From: a virus
Length of the DNA stretch: 22,714 bases
Direction: 5' to 3' (one strand)
Virus record (IMG/VR): IMGVR_UViG_3300047200_000344
Location: 1-22,714 of that record
Of the stretch, positions 1,541-10,451 are shown piece after piece (position 1 is the stretch's first letter; each line of letters begins with the position of its first letter). The translations under genes and the position numbers were made by a program. Under the pieces are notes generated by a model. That model saw only the letters and a program-made list of their open reading frames with translations, made no database searches and was not told the origin of the DNA.

Positions 1541-2364
1541 TATGGCACTCCATACAAATAAATAGAGCCAGTACCATTAAAACTACTGGAAACATTAACT
1601 ATCTTGACCGCATTTATTACGCCGGTGACAGTGGAAATGGCGTCTGCCGCCGTTCCTGCGCTACTGCCATTGACGCAATAATATGGTTTATTGGAGCTAG
1701 ATACGTTGGTTCTAAAGATTTCAGCAAACCCCGTGGGCGTTAAGGAGTTTGATGTTAAGTTTTGCGATGAGGAGCTATAAACGCCGCCATTATTGGAGCT
1801 AACCTGGAACACCAAGGCGCTGCTTGCGGCTGACCCTATGCCGCTAATAACAATTTTAATTGATGAATAAGCACTCAGGCCCGTAGCGGCAATTGATGTT
1901 GTGCCGTTTGTTGGGCTTAAAGTTGCCATCAAAGCCAAGCCTGTGCCGCCAGTTGCTACTGAAGAAGCCCATGTAGTGCCATTGCTGGTTAACACATTGC
2001 CGCTAGCGCCGGGCGCTACAACCTGTACCGTGTTAGTACCGTTGCCTAAAATCACGTTGTTTGCGGTCAACGTAGCGGCGTTTGTGCCACCGCTGGCAAC
2101 CCCAAGCGGCGATGACAAGCTGGCGGTTGAGTTTGTAATAGACGCAGCGTTAATGGTTCCGCCCGTAATGGTCACGTTAGAGCTAGACAGCGATACGTTG
2201 GAAATAGCACCGCCGGTAATAGACACGTTGGCTAGGCTGTTGGTGCCATTGCCAATGCCGTTTACCCCGTTCACTACCGTGGTAAAATTGTTGTCCAACT
2301 GCGACAACGGAATAGACGTTGTAGCGCCGGCAAACGTGTTTGGGATCGTGATTGGCAGTGCCAT
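1540..2364 (-). CDS. Tail fibre / appendage protein
   Basis: 274 residues, very rich in Ser, Thr, Asn and Gly. It starts with MALPITIPNTFAGATTSIPL and LSQLDNNFTTV, a typical fibre N-terminus used for attachment. It continues with short beta-helical repeats (LANVSITGGAISNVSLSS, NVTITGGTINAASI), then the common fibre linker GVASGGTNA...NNVILGNGTNTVQ..SGNVLTSNGTTW, then a C-terminal beta-rich domain ending SIYLYGVP. Such proteins sit on the short tail and contact the host surface. The start overlaps the stop of the nozzle-like gene by 1 nt. No enzymatic (depolymerase) motif is visible. The C-terminal domain, from about residue 145, is the likely variable receptor-binding part. Confidence 0.8.
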   Translation of the reverse strand: MALPITIPNTFAGATTSIPLSQLDNNFTTVVNGVNGIGNGTNSLANVSITGGAISNVSLSSSNVTITGGTINAASITNSTASLSSPLGVASGGTNAATLTANNVILGNGTNTVQVVAPGASGNVLTSNGTTWASSVATGGTGLALMATLSPTNGTTSIAATGLSAYSSIKIVISGIGSAASSALVFQVSSNNGGVYSSSSQNLTSNSLTPTGFAEIFRTNVSSSNKPYYCVNGSSAGTAADAISTVTGVINAVKIVNVSSSFNGTGSIYLYGVP

Positions 2365-4301
2365 TAGAACCTAGCCCTCAGTTCATATTCGAGTTCAAGA
2401 GTGTTTAACGTAAACAAAGCGTTAGACGCCGTAATCGTCAAACCTAGGTACTTGCCATATTGCTGGGCATCGCTCTTGTAAAGCGTGTACCCATTGTTAA
2501 ACCAGTTTATAGTGGCGTTGCTGTTATTTGTCCACGCAATCGTGGTTCCGGCGTTGTTCAGCCAATTGGTGTACGAAACGGCAATGCCGGTGGCGCTGGA
2601 TTTTATCTCGCTGTCGATTGTGACGCCAAACGTGCCAATGGTGGTTGTTGTAACCTCAATAGCCGCCTTTAGAGCCTGCTTGTCCCTGATGGGATCACTC
2701 ATGGGCCACAATGCGCTGCGGATGGTCACGTTACCGCCCGCCGTGCTGCTGTTGTACAGTTTGTAAAGATCCGTGCTGGTTGTGCCATACAGGCTGATAA
2801 CGCCGCTGGACGGAACGCTGGTTACATAGTTAAGCGTGCCTTGCGACGTAAAGAACCACCGCTTGTCAAAAAACACGGCTTGGATTGGTCGCGCGCTAGA
2901 CAACGGATCGTTGTAAGTAAACGACCAAGCGGCACACAAAATGTTGTTGAGCAACACCTGGCCGCCCGTTACCGGCTGGGTAAAATCAATCAACGGGAAT
3001 ATGGCATCAAGCTCGTTGCTCAGCTTAGTTGTGGTGCTGCCCACCAAAGCATAAATGCCGTAGTCGTTCATAAACAACACCGACCGGAAATACGGGAAAA
3101 TAGCCATATTGCGTTTGGTGCCCACCGACGCCGTGACGTTGGTGTTAGTAAAGATTGTAGTGCCGCTTGTTTGCACGCGAACATCTGAAAACACGTTGAT
3201 GCTGTTGTCGCCAAACACATACAGGAAATTGTTAGCCGAGAGCAGCGCCGTAATGTTGTTGTGCAGCGTCTCGTCTTGGATGTTAATGTTGCCGGCGCTT
3301 ACGCTCACAAAATCATTATAGCTAGCCGCCGCCGAGTAATAAACCGTGCGCCCTTGCGCCACCCACGCGCGGCCAGAAAACGTACTTACATCCACAGTGG
3401 TATCAGTGGTTGCTACCGCCGTAGCAATGGCTGCGCCTGTGCTAAACGCAATAGTGGGCGGCGAGGTATAACCCGTGCCGTTGTTGCTAAAGATTAAGCC
3501 CACAACCGCGTTGCCAGACACAATAGCCGTGGCTGCGGCGTTAGTGCCTCCACCGCCCGTTATGGTGACCGTGGGAGCCGATGAATAACCAGTGCCACCG
3601 CTCAGCACATACGCGCCCACAGTGCCCTGTGCGAAGCTCAGCGTGCTTACTACGGCGTTAGCGCCAGAACCGCCGCCGCCAGTAAACGTTACCGTGGGAG
3701 GCGACGTGTAACCCGTGCCAGCTTCAGTAAACAACAGCCCGCTTACGGCGTTGGCCGTCATCACTGCTTGGGCTACAGCCTGAATGCCGCCCGTCTCATT
3801 GGGCGCGGTAATAGCAACCGATGGAGGTGACGTGTAACCCGATCCGCGGTCAACCATGCCGTAAGCCGAAATTGAGCCAATAGACACTACGTTAGTGCCG
3901 TCCCAATTAAACAAACCCTTAACGGTATCTGCGATCAAAATTCGATCGGTTTTCCACTGAGCAATACGCACGCCAGAAGCCGAAAATTTACTGGCAGCAG
4001 CAACCGTGCCTGTGGCGCCCGTATCCACCCGATAATACTGAGCGCCTCCGTTGGTAAAAAACGCTATGATATAATCAACGTTTTTGACGTTGCAGTTATA
4101 CAACGCAGACGGCGTGCCAGACCAAGTAAACAAACTGGCGCTTTGCGCGCCCAACGCTTTAATGTTGCCAAACCCAATGGGCTGAACATTCTCAAGCCAA
4201 GCAAATTGATCGGTATCAATGGCCGTGCGGTTAGCTTGGGTATTTACACCCTTAAAGTTTTTAACGACCTGATAAGATTTCTTTTGCTCAGCCGCGGCCA
4301 T
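2364..4301 (-). CDS. Tail nozzle-like / stabilisation protein with four-repeat insertion
   Basis: 645 residues. The N-terminal part (VVKNFKGVNTQANRTAID..QFAWLENVQPIGFG) has the look of P22 gp10/SU10-type nozzle proteins, which are beta-propellers that extend the short tail below the adaptor; the repeating hydrophobic strands between 60 and 145 and from 310 onward fit this. Residues about 153-300 contain four copies of a roughly 40-residue unit (GSGYTSPPSVAIT, GTGYTSPPTVTFT, GTGYSSAPTVTIT, GTGYTSPPTIAFS), spaced 42, 41 and 39 residues apart. They appear inserted into the propeller. Position directly after the adaptor gene supports the tail role. The exact homologue is not certain. Confidence 0.75.
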   Translation of the reverse strand: MAAAEQKKSYQVVKNFKGVNTQANRTAIDTDQFAWLENVQPIGFGNIKALGAQSASLFTWSGTPSALYNCNVKNVDYIIAFFTNGGAQYYRVDTGATGTVAAASKFSASGVRIAQWKTDRILIADTVKGLFNWDGTNVVSIGSISAYGMVDRGSGYTSPPSVAITAPNETGGIQAVAQAVMTANAVSGLLFTEAGTGYTSPPTVTFTGGGGSGANAVVSTLSFAQGTVGAYVLSGGTGYSSAPTVTITGGGGTNAAATAIVSGNAVVGLIFSNNGTGYTSPPTIAFSTGAAIATAVATTDTTVDVSTFSGRAWVAQGRTVYYSAAASYNDFVSVSAGNINIQDETLHNNITALLSANNFLYVFGDNSINVFSDVRVQTSGTTIFTNTNVTASVGTKRNMAIFPYFRSVLFMNDYGIYALVGSTTTKLSNELDAIFPLIDFTQPVTGGQVLLNNILCAAWSFTYNDPLSSARPIQAVFFDKRWFFTSQGTLNYVTSVPSSGVISLYGTTSTDLYKLYNSSTAGGNVTIRSALWPMSDPIRDKQALKAAIEVTTTTIGTFGVTIDSEIKSSATGIAVSYTNWLNNAGTTIAWTNNSNATINWFNNGYTLYKSDAQQYGKYLGLTITASNALFTLNTLELEYELRARF

Positions 4302-4302
4302 A

Positions 4303-4938
4303 TTAGAACCCTGAGCCGTAGGCGTCGGGAATCCGACGCGTAAAGCTGGTATTAATCACCGACAAGGCTTTGGCCTTGTATTGGTTTAAAAATATCTCAG
4401 ACTCACCGTAAGACTGCTCTTTAAACTTAGCCGTGTGGCAAGCGTAATACGGCACCGGATCCGTCCACGGGCTAATAATGGCATCCACATCCGTTGTGTT
4501 GACCAAAGCCGTGGGCAGGATAATTGTATCCAATTCCATCTCGTAAACTTGGTCAGGAATTGGGCTAATATAAAAAGACTGCTGCCCATACACCGAAAAC
4601 GCAATTGGCCTGCCAATGTAGTTCTGCCAGAACCGCAACTCGGCGTTAAACTGTGTCCAAGGCAGGTAACGCAGCGGAATGCGCGTATTGCCCCAGTACA
4701 AATTGATGTTGAGGATGTCCATCGTCTGAATGCCGCTTGGAAGCGCGCTAAATTGATAGACTTCTTGGCTTGTGACCGTATTTACGGTCTGGATGGTGCG
4801 CAAGCAACCCGTATCGCGCACCAGCCGCTCACGCGCGGCGTTGATGTAGTCGGTTAACTCGCTGTCAGACCAAAAGTTGGCGTTTGCGTCATGCAAAAGC
4901 CGCCTGCACTGCGTAATGTAAGTCTGAAGGGTAGCCAT
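4303..4938 (-). CDS. Head-to-tail adaptor protein
   Basis: 211 residues. The N-terminal helix-rich segment (ITQCRRLLHDANANFWSDSELTDYINAARERLVRDTGC) is the recognisable hallmark of P22 gp4/SU10-type adaptors: a conserved FWSD.EL..YIN.AR..L pattern that docks under the portal ring. The middle part is beta-rich (EVYQFSALPSGIQTMDIL, FYISPIPDQVYEMELDTI), and the C-terminus has a helical YYACHTAKF..QSYGES..FL..Y motif also typical of the family. GGAGAG lies just before the ATG. The gene lies between head genes and the nozzle-like gene, the expected place. The protein would close the portal exit and bind the nozzle. Confidence 0.8.
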   Translation of the reverse strand: MATLQTYITQCRRLLHDANANFWSDSELTDYINAARERLVRDTGCLRTIQTVNTVTSQEVYQFSALPSGIQTMDILNINLYWGNTRIPLRYLPWTQFNAELRFWQNYIGRPIAFSVYGQQSFYISPIPDQVYEMELDTIILPTALVNTTDVDAIISPWTDPVPYYACHTAKFKEQSYGESEIFLNQYKAKALSVINTSFTRRIPDAYGSGF

Positions 4939-6083: not shown

Positions 6084-7100
6084 TTAGATCGTTAGAGCGT
6101 TGAAGCCAGTAACCTTGGTCATGGCTCGAGGCTTGGTATTTACCAACTCCGCAATCATGAGCACGGCACCGACATAACCAATCTGCCAATTTGGCAGCGT
6201 GGACTCAAAGCCCGTGAACACAAACGAACCCTGATCGTGGATGTACAACGACAGGTAGTTGGTGTTCAGGAAGTACACTGTGCCTTCGGGGCAGTACGGA
6301 TCGGGATAGATCGGCACACCAGCAACCATAAGCGCGCGGAACGCAGCCTGCGGGCCGTTTGCATCGCCATCAAAGCCGGAACCCGGCGTGATAACGTATT
6401 GTTCCTGACCAACGTAATCCTGCGCCAGCAAGGTCCAAGTACCAAAACCGCACACGCCAAAGGTCGGCACTTCCGCGCCGTTCTTAACCGTGCCGCTGAT
6501 GTACTGAAGGATGTTCTGACGGGTCGGGTTAACCGAACCAGCCGCGTACACCTTAGAGCGCCACCAGGTATTAACCGTGGTAGAGCGGGCAATGTTGCCG
6601 TAGGTGCCAAGCGTGGTGCCGTCATCCACAGCGCCCGGCAGACCAATAAACTGCTGAGTGTTTGTGGTGTTGTTGTACAGCGCCGTCGCCATCGCATCCA
6701 TCATGACGTTGGTTGCGTCATTCATGCGGGCTTCAATCAGCGGAATAATTGCATGATCCTGCTGCACAGCGCCTTCCATACCAAGGAACGGCACCGGAGC
6801 AATCATCAGCTTCAGGTTAAACTCGGCGTTATACGCGCCTTGCTGAACCGCGGGCTGAGTGAACGAACCAGAATAATCCGACCACTGCGCGTTGATAAAC
6901 TGGCTGCCCTGCACCGGCACGGTAACGGACGAAACACCGCCCGTGGCCTGCTGGCTGTTTGCAATCAACGCCGCCATAAGCGGGGTGCTGTTGTAAATCT
7001 GGACAACAAGTTTCGGGATGAACGCCCTACGAGTAAGGTAGGTCAGTTCTGTGTACTGCGTGCTCCCCGATGCGGGGAGAATACCACCACCAATTGGCAT
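6084..7100 (-). CDS. Major capsid protein (HK97-fold type)
   Basis: 338 residues. Recognisable features include the N-terminal region (TELTYLTRRAFIPKLVVQIYNSTPLMAALI), the VSSVTVPVQGSQFINAQWSDYSG segment, the long helix region (HAIIPLIEARMNDATNVMMDAM) corresponding to the HK97 spine helix, and the C-terminal strand block (PNWQIGYVGAVLMIAELVNTKPRAM). It would form the icosahedral shell. An AGGAG site precedes the ATG by about 7 nt. It follows the scaffold-like gene and precedes small head genes, the standard order. No protease gene is visible nearby, so scaffold removal may not need one. The long rightward open frame across 6237-7709 is a codon-usage shadow. Confidence 0.9.
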   Translation of the reverse strand: MPIGGGILPASGSTQYTELTYLTRRAFIPKLVVQIYNSTPLMAALIANSQQATGGVSSVTVPVQGSQFINAQWSDYSGSFTQPAVQQGAYNAEFNLKLMIAPVPFLGMEGAVQQDHAIIPLIEARMNDATNVMMDAMATALYNNTTNTQQFIGLPGAVDDGTTLGTYGNIARSTTVNTWWRSKVYAAGSVNPTRQNILQYISGTVKNGAEVPTFGVCGFGTWTLLAQDYVGQEQYVITPGSGFDGDANGPQAAFRALMVAGVPIYPDPYCPEGTVYFLNTNYLSLYIHDQGSFVFTGFESTLPNWQIGYVGAVLMIAELVNTKPRAMTKVTGFNALTI

Positions 7101-7869: not shown

Positions 7870-8430
7870 CTATCGGGGCATTCCCGGAGGCGGACCACCC
7901 GCACCCGGCATTGGGGGACCACCAGGCGGCGGACCACCCGGCATAGGCATACCACCCGGCGGCGGCATTGGCGGGCCACCCGGAGGCATACCCGGAGGCA
8001 TACCGGGAGGAGGACCGCCGCCACCCATACCCGGAATGGCCGGCATTCCAGCCATAGCCTTCATTTCAGGGGTTGCGCCGCCAGCTTGCGGTAGATTTTG
8101 CAACAACTGAAGAATCTCGGCGTTCTGAAGCTCGCCAACCTTTTGCCGGCGCGGCCCCATTGCTCCCGTGAGCGAACGCAATGCAGACACTAGCCTTTGG
8201 CCTTCTGAAGTCTCGCTTCCAATTGCCGGAAGGGATTGCTCAATCAAGTCCATAGCCATTCCCACGTTAATCAACGCGGCTTCACGCGAACCCATTTTAG
8301 GTTCCGGCGTACTCATAGGCGATGCCATTGGCGGGGCAGACGCGCCTTCTTTGCCCGGCTCGGGCGCATTTAGTTCCGGTGCTTCTTGTGGGCGCTGATT
8401 ACGCAGCAGCCTCATAACGCTTTCGGACAC
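7870..8430 (-). CDS. Gly/Pro/Met-rich low-complexity protein between portal and scaffold genes
   Basis: 186 residues from a GTG start at 8430, chosen because GGAG lies 6 nt upstream; a TTG four codons earlier has no site. The N-terminal third is polar and Pro-rich, the middle (REAALINVGMAMDLIEQSLP, GQRLVSALRSLTGAMG, NAEILQLLQNLPQAGG) is helical, and the last 60 residues are almost only Gly, Pro and Met (GMPPGMPPGGPPMPPPGG). Similar proteins with a helical core and GGMPP tail occur in this position in podovirus-like genomes. The tail may be disordered and could bind scaffold or capsid. A minor internal head role is inferred, and no enzymatic motif is present. Confidence 0.7.
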   Translation of the reverse strand: MSESVMRLLRNQRPQEAPELNAPEPGKEGASAPPMASPMSTPEPKMGSREAALINVGMAMDLIEQSLPAIGSETSEGQRLVSALRSLTGAMGPRRQKVGELQNAEILQLLQNLPQAGGATPEMKAMAGMPAIPGMGGGGPPPGMPPGMPPGGPPMPPPGGMPMPGGPPPGGPPMPGAGGPPPGMPR

Positions 8431-8555
8431 TTTATGCTCCAAATAACAATTGCGGGCGTAACACCCACATTAAGCAAAAGTCAAGCGGGACTATTTTTAT
8501 CTTCCGGTCCCGCGCGGAAGTCGCGGTGTAACGACTGCTCAAGGCAGTGCGTTAG

Positions 8556-8588
8556 TTACCGGCGAGCCTTACGACCCTTGCGACGCAT
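8556..8588 (-). CDS. Tiny basic peptide, 10 aa
   Basis: An ATG preceded by AAAGGAGG at 6-7 nt opens a 10-residue frame MRRKGRKARR, seven of whose residues are Arg or Lys. The ribosome site is among the best in the window, so translation is likely even though the product is very short. It follows, about 40 nt downstream, a second tiny basic peptide of the same style. Possible roles (inference) are packaged DNA-neutralising peptide, similar in idea to protein J of phiX174, or a translated leader controlling downstream genes. A 17-codon frame overlapping it from an upstream ATG has no comparable site. Confidence 0.5.
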   Translation of the reverse strand: MRRKGRKARR

Positions 8589-8627
8589 GGGAAACCTCCT
8601 TTCATTGCTAGAGAAAAACAAACCGCA

Positions 8628-8672
8628 TTAACGGCAGCCTTTACGGCGACCGCGCTTGACGGACTTGTACAT
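8628..8672 (-). CDS. Tiny basic peptide, 14 aa
   Basis: The frame encodes MYKSVKRGRRKGCR, eight of 14 residues basic. Its ATG lies 7 nt after a GGAGG within AAGGAGGTGA, a full-length match to the 16S rRNA anti-Shine-Dalgarno. That site is itself the end of the upstream 53-aa gene, whose TGA is embedded in it, so the two are coupled. With the neighbouring 10-aa peptide it forms a pair of Arg/Lys-rich mini-genes between portal and minor head genes. The function is unknown; a nucleic-acid-binding virion peptide or a regulatory leader are the two main guesses. Confidence 0.55.
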   Translation of the reverse strand: MYKSVKRGRRKGCR

Positions 8673-8676
8673 GGTA

Positions 8677-8838
8677 TCACCTCCTTCCTGAACGCGCACT
8701 AGCGCGTGGCGCTGCCTTGTTACCCAAGGTGCGAATAGAGGATACCCTGTATTCTATAGAAGGCGAGGGATTTCCACGCGCAATATCTTTTGCTTGCGCT
8801 CGGGGCTGGTCGGATTGGATTCTAAAATCCTGCGCCAT
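8677..8838 (-). CDS. 53-aa basic protein coupled to the portal gene
   Basis: The ATG at 8838 overlaps the portal stop in a TAATG arrangement, and the frame runs 53 residues: MAQDFRIQSDQPRAQAKDIA, then RGNPSPSIEYRVSSIRTLGN, then KAAPRASARSGRR. The product is hydrophilic and basic, with an Arg-rich C-terminus. Its TGA lies inside the perfect ribosome site of the following 14-aa peptide. The stop/start coupling on both sides argues that it is a real gene. The segment SIEYRVSSIRTLGN may form a short ordered element. No family is recognised. Confidence 0.6.
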   Translation of the reverse strand: MAQDFRIQSDQPRAQAKDIARGNPSPSIEYRVSSIRTLGNKAAPRASARSGRR

Positions 8839-10451
8839 TATTTACCCTGCTTGCCTGGCGGCTTGCCCTCCGGTGGTGGGCTTGCCTTTTGTTGAGTGGC
8901 TTGCTTCTTCAGCTTGTCTTTCAACAATTGCTTCATAGGCGGATCAAGCAAATCAATCAAGGATTCTTTGTCGATAGCTTGCGCCTTGAACAAGTTGAAC
9001 GCCAACTGCCGCATGTCCTCCATGAAAATCGGGCTGTTGGAGTGAGCGTCAACCTTGACCATAAAGTCCTTGGTAAACTGCTCAGCAATAAACCGATGCC
9101 CATGCGCATCCGTAAAATGCGTGCGATCATACTGCTGCATAGCTTTTAGGTACAGCGTAGCCATCTTTTCCAGCGCGTCTTCAATGACTAGAGCGCGCTT
9201 CTTAATGCGCGAAGAACCAAGCCGCGCCAACTGAGACGCATGGCCCTGAGACCTAACGCCAGACTCGCCGCGGCCAGACAACACTGAGGAAATGCCAGAC
9301 GCCTCGGCAAACATAGCGTCAATGGCGTCAATCTCGCGGAACAAATCAGCCGGCATTTCAGGCGCCAGCCGTTCAACTTTGCCTTGCGCCATGTCGTTGG
9401 ACAACAGCCCGCCGGCGCGGTTTAGCGCAAAATTCTTCTCATCCAAAATGCCCGTAAAACCCATCAACGCCGTGGGCGGATTCACCTGCTTGCTCAACAG
9501 GTCAAGAATCTCAGCCATGCGTTGGTTGCGCATCTGCTGAAGGTGAACCAGCTTTTGAACCTCAGATTGACCCCAGTAATAATCATACTGCGGGTTAGGC
9601 GTAATCTGGATAAACGGCAGTTCGCCCTTCATAAAAAGCTGCTCGCCGGGGCGGTCATAGATGATGACATCCGGGTCCGCGATGGTCACGACCTGATAGT
9701 CGTTTGTCTCATCGTTCCACAGATACAACTCTCGCATTTCGATTGTATCTTCGGCCACCCGCGCTTTCATGCGGTTAAAGCCGTTTAGATCAAGGTTAAC
9801 ATTGCCATAAATTGTGGGATTGGTTTGGCTCATCACGATGCGGTTAAGACCGTCAGGCACTTGGCTAGGAGCGTGCTGGGCGGCGCTAATACGATCCATA
9901 ATGGACTTACGCTTAGGATGCCCATACAGCCGACGCGCCAAATCAGACTTGGTAATGTAGTAAGTCTGAACAATAGCCTCTTGCCGGTCAGTGTATGGCG
10001 TATCTTCGCGCAGCACACCTACGCTGCCAGGCTCCACCATGTAGGGGTGTATGGACCCATTGCGCATAACCAACTTGATAAACGTAGACGCATAACAAAG
10101 CGCCCACGTCATCGCCATGGCAAACACTTGGTCGCCGTTGGAATCCTGCCACTTGTCGTTCAACGCAGAAGTCAGAACCTGGACCTTGGTGTGCTCAACT
10201 TCCGGTACCGACGCGCCAAGGTTGATGCTAAACCGCGTGGTATCCGCGCTAAACAAAAACGCGGTCACCTGATCAATGTGCGGGTAAATCTTGTTGTAGT
10301 GCGCCGGGCTTTCATCCGGCCCAGACCCAAACAGATAGAAGGAACGCAAGGTGCTGTAGTCCGCCTTGCGCTCCTCGCGCGACACCATGCACTTCTCTGT
10401 CAAATCCAGATACAGTGTTTCGCGCTCAATTGGGTCTTTGGGGAGGATCAC
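8838..10451 (-). CDS. Portal protein
   Basis: 537 residues, starting at a GTG with AGAGGGA about 8 nt upstream. Portal-like features include the N-terminal REERKADYSTLRSFYLFGSG, the beta/helix region with IYPHIDQVTAFLFSADTTRF, the GELPFIQITPNPQYDYYWGQSEVQ segment, the clip/stem-like helices (LVHLQQMRNQRMAEILDLLSKQ) and ASGISSVLSGRGESGVRSQGHASQL, where residues line up with the crown-proximal helix of podovirus portals. The C-terminus is Lys/Pro-rich (PPPEGKPPGKQGK). The dodecameric ring would form the DNA entry vertex and bind TerL and the adaptor. Its position after terminase genes is the standard order. Confidence 0.88.
   Translation of the reverse strand: MILPKDPIERETLYLDLTEKCMVSREERKADYSTLRSFYLFGSGPDESPAHYNKIYPHIDQVTAFLFSADTTRFSINLGASVPEVEHTKVQVLTSALNDKWQDSNGDQVFAMAMTWALCYASTFIKLVMRNGSIHPYMVEPGSVGVLREDTPYTDRQEAIVQTYYITKSDLARRLYGHPKRKSIMDRISAAQHAPSQVPDGLNRIVMSQTNPTIYGNVNLDLNGFNRMKARVAEDTIEMRELYLWNDETNDYQVVTIADPDVIIYDRPGEQLFMKGELPFIQITPNPQYDYYWGQSEVQKLVHLQQMRNQRMAEILDLLSKQVNPPTALMGFTGILDEKNFALNRAGGLLSNDMAQGKVERLAPEMPADLFREIDAIDAMFAEASGISSVLSGRGESGVRSQGHASQLARLGSSRIKKRALVIEDALEKMATLYLKAMQQYDRTHFTDAHGHRFIAEQFTKDFMVKVDAHSNSPIFMEDMRQLAFNLFKAQAIDKESLIDLLDPPMKQLLKDKLKKQATQQKASPPPEGKPPGKQGK

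Follow-up and report, generated by a model that had tools for sequence, protein, structure and literature searches.

The J protein of phiX174 binds the phage DNA and guides it in the capsid, with about 120 copies per RF molecule (PMC13386984). T4 gene 32 encodes a protein that binds nucleic acid and, by way of a 5′ pseudoknot, represses the mRNA from which it is made (PMC535899). Catalogues and reviews of phage small proteins have likewise described unannotated short phage genes found by conservation, although such surveys mostly concern ORFs longer than those reported here. We analysed a window of 22,714 nucleotides (the whole stretch, positions 1 to 22,714 of IMG/VR record IMGVR_UViG_3300047200_000344), in which two tiny genes, P1 and P2, follow the portal gene.

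P1 and P2 resemble microvirus J in being very small and basic, and J, which acts at the virion stage, is their nearest functional analogue. However, J is a longer protein from a small ssDNA phage, whereas P1 and P2 belong to dsDNA tailed phages, have 10–17 aa, occur as 1–3 paralogues and are candidates for packaging; no homology is claimed. The peptides are too short for a homology search against J to be meaningful. The operator of T4 gene 32 is the nearest regulatory analogue, with an H-type pseudoknot 5′ of the ribosome site that is lost in some relatives, as in the present lineage. But gp32 is a full-size ssDNA-binding protein, the window has no pseudoknot while its relatives do, and binding of the peptides to the pseudoknot is hypothetical. 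Membership in neither the J-like nor the gp32-type system can be claimed for P1 and P2. SU10 (Kuravirus) has a related portal domain (Pfam SU10_portal) and the order terminase-portal-scaffold-capsid in common with the window, but its gap holds a 78-aa ORF and no basic mini-ORF, unlike the lineage of the window.

Layout of the locus

The features of the locus are as follows, all on the minus strand.

10451 to 8838 (8838..10451, −): gene of the 537-aa portal protein, on which the locus is anchored (matches: Pfam SU10_portal and PHROG portal families)
8677..8838 (−): ORF53, 53 aa, overlapping the portal stop via TAATG; a conserved ...DQPR...YR... protein in most relatives
8677..8686 (−): P1 ribosome site AAGGAGGTGA, which contains the ORF53 TGA stop; strongest duplex energy of 407 ATGs
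8628..8672 (−): P1, 14-aa basic peptide gene MYKSVKRGRRKGCR; pooled dN/dS in relatives 0.225
8620..8640 (−): terminator-like hairpin over the last codons and stop of P1, then a T run; consensus match only
8595..8602 (−): P2 ribosome site AAAGGAGG; second strongest duplex energy on the strand
8556..8588 (−): P2, 10-aa basic peptide gene MRRKGRKARR; pooled dN/dS in relatives 0.28
8485..8513 (−): inverted repeat GCGGGAC-15 nt-GTCCCGC, flush with the −35 box of the next promoter; arrangement kept in relatives
8479..8484 (−): TTGACT, which lies downstream of P2 and is the putative −35 box of a promoter for the head genes; its −10 partner is weak in the window
7870..8430 (−): next gene, GTG start, Pro/Gly-rich head-region protein, family unassigned
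6084..7100 (−): major capsid protein gene (phrog_9953, E 4e-36)

An earlier, sequence-only reading had placed a 53-aa frame in a TAATG overlap with the portal stop, and both its coordinates and its frame were right (ORF53, 8838-8677); the equivalent gene is annotated in MW202753 at 4573-4737. The ribosome sites that it had described before P1 and P2 were found as claimed. Its count of seven basic residues out of ten was correct for P2, but P1 has seven K/R residues out of 14 and not eight. Both products are therefore small and highly basic, as J-like miniproteins are. The spacer between P1 and P2 is 42 nt in the window, and P2 lies about 125 nt from the next head-region gene. The predicted pairing with the 16S tail was −18.3 kcal/mol for P1 and −12.8 for P2, which rank first and second among the 407 ATGs on the strand, compared with −7.3 for the capsid gene, and both peptides are predicted to be efficiently and strongly translated.

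Distribution and coding evidence

Portal relatives were drawn from IMG/VR, species genomes and annotated phages, and 132 distinct downstream regions were chosen by portal similarity alone. A basic mini-ORF was defined as 9–20 aa with at least 45% K/R, an ATG and a ribosome site. The gap held two such ORFs in 100 regions, one in 23, three in 5 and none in 4, so 128 of the 132 portal-fetched regions carry one to three basic peptides, with start, stop and ribosome site conserved. In the first 237 loci, 410 basic mini-ORFs were on the portal strand versus 5 on the opposite one. Control sequence of about 275 kb, from 12 phage regions or genomes (Mx8, BUCT555, SU10, HTVC010P, HMO-2011, T7 and six more), contained none.

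Of the four regions with none, two (L164 and L238) lack both peptides beside an intact portal, as does a further locus (L109); L160 has only a much less basic version (20 aa, 35% basic), and in L034 the ATG of an otherwise intact P2 was changed to ATA. Because of these cases, P1 and P2 are, as judged from the genomes compared, near-universal yet dispensable in some backgrounds. In L109, a gene MAQTNNLTTGQRVGAQ... stands directly after the ORF53 equivalent, a natural replacement in the tiny-gene slot. In two other loci (L157 and L158), the portal stop is followed closely by an extra 32-aa Lys/Arg-rich ORF (MANKEKKEEKKPQKYTGPRKYRGEGKKRGRIT), which precedes the ORF53 equivalent and adds another small basic gene to this slot.

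An IMG/VR-wide scan with the pattern MARKARK[AG]xK gave at least 128 matches, and 127 of the 128 listed stop at 13–14 codons. Among the matches listed, all 118 with a detected portal lie less than 700 nt downstream of it on the same strand; nine of the ten without a detected portal are in the pseudoknot context described below, and the other is an unrelated longer ORF. The P2 family, among the matches listed, therefore occurs only beside the portal lineage of the window or its pseudoknot. In searches of cultured phages and plasmids, the portal was found in two metagenomic records only. DNA searches with the P2 unit returned only chance-level matches in plasmids and, in phages, short chance-level matches plus a weak one to MW202825, a relative already known. 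No such peptides were found in phages whose link to the lineage is limited to a distant capsid protein (Mx8, BUCT555 and others). The phages that carry the peptides form a large, almost entirely uncultured tailed-phage group.

The pooled Nei-Gojobori dN/dS was 0.225 for P1 (102 distinct DNA sequences) and 0.28 for P2 (91 distinct), and third codon positions held 63% and 58% of the differences, respectively. In the wrong frames the ratio was 1.7–3.8, which indicates purifying selection in frame; the pairs compared are phylogenetically non-independent, but the direction is unambiguous. In the clade of the window, P1 differs between members mostly by synonymous changes and by insertions or deletions of codon size, and the 33 nt of P2 are the same throughout apart from L017. 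The coding evidence for P2 comes from the other clades, since its invariant DNA gives no synonymous signal here, and an extra RNA- or DNA-level constraint on P2 in this clade is possible from the alignment. We conclude from these comparisons that P1 and P2 are almost certainly real protein-coding genes. Chance ORFs were ruled out by the selection, the strand bias and the control phages. Pieces of a larger spliced, hopped or frameshifted protein were rejected as well: the length of the P1-P2 spacer ranges between about 39 and 91 nt, with every phase represented, and no fixed frame therefore joins the two.

The same data bear on the idea that these stretches are untranslated and form part of a signal in structured RNA or DNA, such as a packaging site or a pRNA-like element, with a sequence that reads as basic codons by chance. 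The identity of P2 DNA in nearly all of the clade of the window would fit such a signal, as would the structured RNA that adjoins P2 in relatives. However, the 91–102 distinct DNA versions found elsewhere differ by synonymous changes and codon-sized length changes, and they conserve the ATG, the stop and the ribosome site. We consider this idea extremely improbable.

The sequence-only reading had suggested an unannotated class of miniproteins next to the portal, and its observation on P1 and P2 is confirmed as real and broader than it had described: conserved peptides are present in 128 of 132 relatives and under selection, and neither of two annotated relatives has them called. In both of these, MW202825 and MW202753, P1 and P2 are present but unannotated. 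In MW202753, two hypothetical proteins are annotated antisense over P1, the pseudoknot and P2 (4740-5038), and both annotations are probably spurious; in MW202825, one wrong-strand ORF is annotated across the gap. The genes are below the size cut-off of ordinary gene callers, which in MW202753 called wrong-strand ORFs instead. The exact peptide strings that we tested were not found in the literature searched. Under purifying selection in hundreds of genomes and only 10–13 codons long, P1 and P2 rank with the shortest protein-coding genes that sequence comparison strongly supports.

Beyond what had been seen in the window itself, our analysis showed the paralogy of P1 and P2, their occurrence in one to three copies and an ancestral pseudoknot. 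P1 (MYKxxKRGRKTRR type) and P2 (M(A)RKARKGRKSRK type) have a C-terminal GRKxRR/K pattern in common, and in L240 the two are nearly identical (MRKARKAGRKTRR, MARKARKAGRKGRK). Three copies occur in several loci (L045, L088, L101, L308 and others). At 38% portal identity (L383, L404, L430 and L451), P2 is MARRGRRHKRK-like and is followed by a further tiny basic gene, for example MAGRRGAKRPRRY or MPGKVRGARKPRRAKRY. The peptides consist almost only of K, R, G, A, S and T; exact residues turn over and charge is kept. From these sequences, P1 and P2 look like paralogues in one family of 10–17-aa polycationic peptides.

The pseudoknot and the promoter elements

In most clades, the P1-P2 spacer holds an H-type pseudoknot, GGG-TRT-[GGCTGNCTT]-CCC-n-[AAGNNGGCC], whose 3′ end is 18–25 nt before the P2 ATG, just upstream of the P2 ribosome site. 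Its second stem is rebuilt from differing sequences: GGCTGACTT/AAGTTGGCC, GGCTGCATT/AATGTGGCC, GGGCGCAT/ATGTGCCC, CCTGCTC/GAGTAGG and TTCTGCTC/GAGTAGAA. The covariation score was 0.290 versus 0.108 ± 0.012 when shuffled (0/500; alignment A2, 47 sequences); in this alignment, 8 of 11 pseudoknot pairs had changed on both sides, and slid controls scored at most 0.15. In IMG/VR, 86 of 89 matches to the pseudoknot pattern precede a basic mini-ORF. The Rfam covariance models gave no gathering-level match in the gap, and a relaxed search gave none in the gap of the window and two in L239 that were below threshold and at chance level; a known RNA family was thus rejected, with no accepted Rfam match.

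The deepest branches sampled (L163, L239, L162 and L383) have the pseudoknot. One variant of it has a 2x2 internal loop. By a scan that allowed mismatches and by alignment, no pseudoknot was found in the P1-P2 spacer of the clade of the window and its neighbours. Since it is present on the deepest branches and absent here, it was lost in the clade of the window. The hairpin at 8640-8620 (−) may stand in for it as the element between P1 and P2.

These results bear on whether the peptides are mainly RNA-binding regulators of the arginine-rich-motif kind, which would time head-gene expression through their action on phage mRNAs, their own pseudoknot leader among them, and would have no part in the virion. 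The pseudoknot is ancestral and specific to P2 and lies close before its ATG, and P2 ribosome sites are weaker where it is present (−7.1 kcal/mol, versus −10.3 without it, as compared by clade with relatedness ignored). T4 gp32, which binds nucleic acid, has its operator in a pseudoknot on the 5′ side of the ribosome site, a pseudoknot that RB49 reportedly lacks (PMC535899). However, P2 stays where the pseudoknot is lost, so self-regulation cannot be its sole role, and the IMG/VR pattern scan did not find the pseudoknot upstream of other genes. A mainly regulatory role is in our view unlikely.

In deep relatives, P2 also has promoters of its own. In L239 it has a TTGACA-17-TAGAGT promoter and an intrinsic terminator, and TTGACA- or TTGACT-led units stand ahead of the pseudoknot and P2 in L162, L163, L383 and L380; P2 is retained with its own promoter at 38–59% portal identity. 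Of 113 regions in the larger clade, 90 have a TTGAC element between P2 and the head genes, compared with 12.5% of shuffles; the element is often abutted upstream by a 6–7-bp inverted repeat with an A-rich loop. In the window, promoter prediction called none at TTGACT, where the −10 is weak. At 8513-8479 (−), GCGGGAC-CGGAAGATAAAAATA-GTCCCGC directly abuts TTGACT; its loop of 15 nt is A-rich, and divergent relatives have different stems. This inverted repeat is possibly an operator or terminator at the head-gene promoter.

The sequence-only reading had also proposed translated leaders. Translation of such a peptide would govern the head genes behind it, through attenuation or coupling. P1 and P2 are located ahead of the head genes and both are followed by hairpins, as such leaders might be. 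But a leader would lie in a 5′ leader transcript with no promoter between it and the genes, and most relatives have the promoter element downstream of P2, weak as its −10 is in the window. Moreover, P2 of L239 has its own promoter and terminator, and P2 of L162 lies beside unrelated neighbours. The amino-acid sequence is conserved and codon choice is not: synonymous codons vary while the peptide is kept. The promoter downstream of P2 and the separate promoter of P2 on deep branches thus disfavour a leader role, which we regard as very unlikely.

Possible functions of P1 and P2

The best overall explanation, which we consider about evenly balanced between right and wrong, is that P1 and P2 are J-like nucleic-acid binders at head assembly. 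Their composition suggests nucleic-acid binding: residues that are almost only K, R, G, A, S and T are typical of such binders and too polar for membrane action. Position, copy number and predicted expression point to a role in packaging or in the head. While the head is assembled and the genome packaged, the peptides would bind nucleic acid in the manner of phiX174 J, and would either enter the capsid with the DNA or act on the DNA during packaging. The sequence-only reading, which is borne out in part, had suggested packaged peptides that could condense DNA, a role that is conjectural. By our own arithmetic, charge neutralisation of a whole 35-kb genome would take thousands of copies per virion, and a partial or catalytic role is likelier for this reason.

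The ancestral output of P1 and P2 may have been set by the pseudoknot in the P2 mRNA. By analogy with gp32, a plausible feedback is that peptide not taken up by DNA would bind the pseudoknot and block translation. In the clade of the window, the pseudoknot has been lost and the ribosome sites are stronger. Timing, packaging and feedback are what we infer from the arrangement of the genes, and the functional reading as a whole is held tentatively, a little short of an even balance.

Action on the host at a late stage (for example, on ribosomes, the nucleoid or RNA polymerase) would agree with the high predicted expression, and many phage small proteins do reprogramme the host (review PMC11323111). 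Nevertheless, the position between the portal and the head genes is fixed in all clades, the composition offers no recognisable interaction surface, and exact residues turn over while charge is kept. We therefore judge a host target to be quite improbable.

It is possible, although doubtful, that P1 and P2 represent a new class of virion miniproteins in dsDNA phages: polycations of 10–17 residues, in one to three paralogues beside the portal, which would either be packaged along with the genome or load onto it, and whose dose would ancestrally have been set by feedback between peptide and pseudoknot on the mRNA that encodes them. If the peptides are packaged, some tailed phages would use encoded polycations on their own DNA. 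The P2-specific covarying pseudoknot without an Rfam match, the natural lineages with and without it and the natural losses of the peptides make the question directly testable.

Elsewhere in the window, a tail or structural protein at 2364-4301 (−) has at least three internal repeats of the GTGYTSPPTVTITGGGG type.
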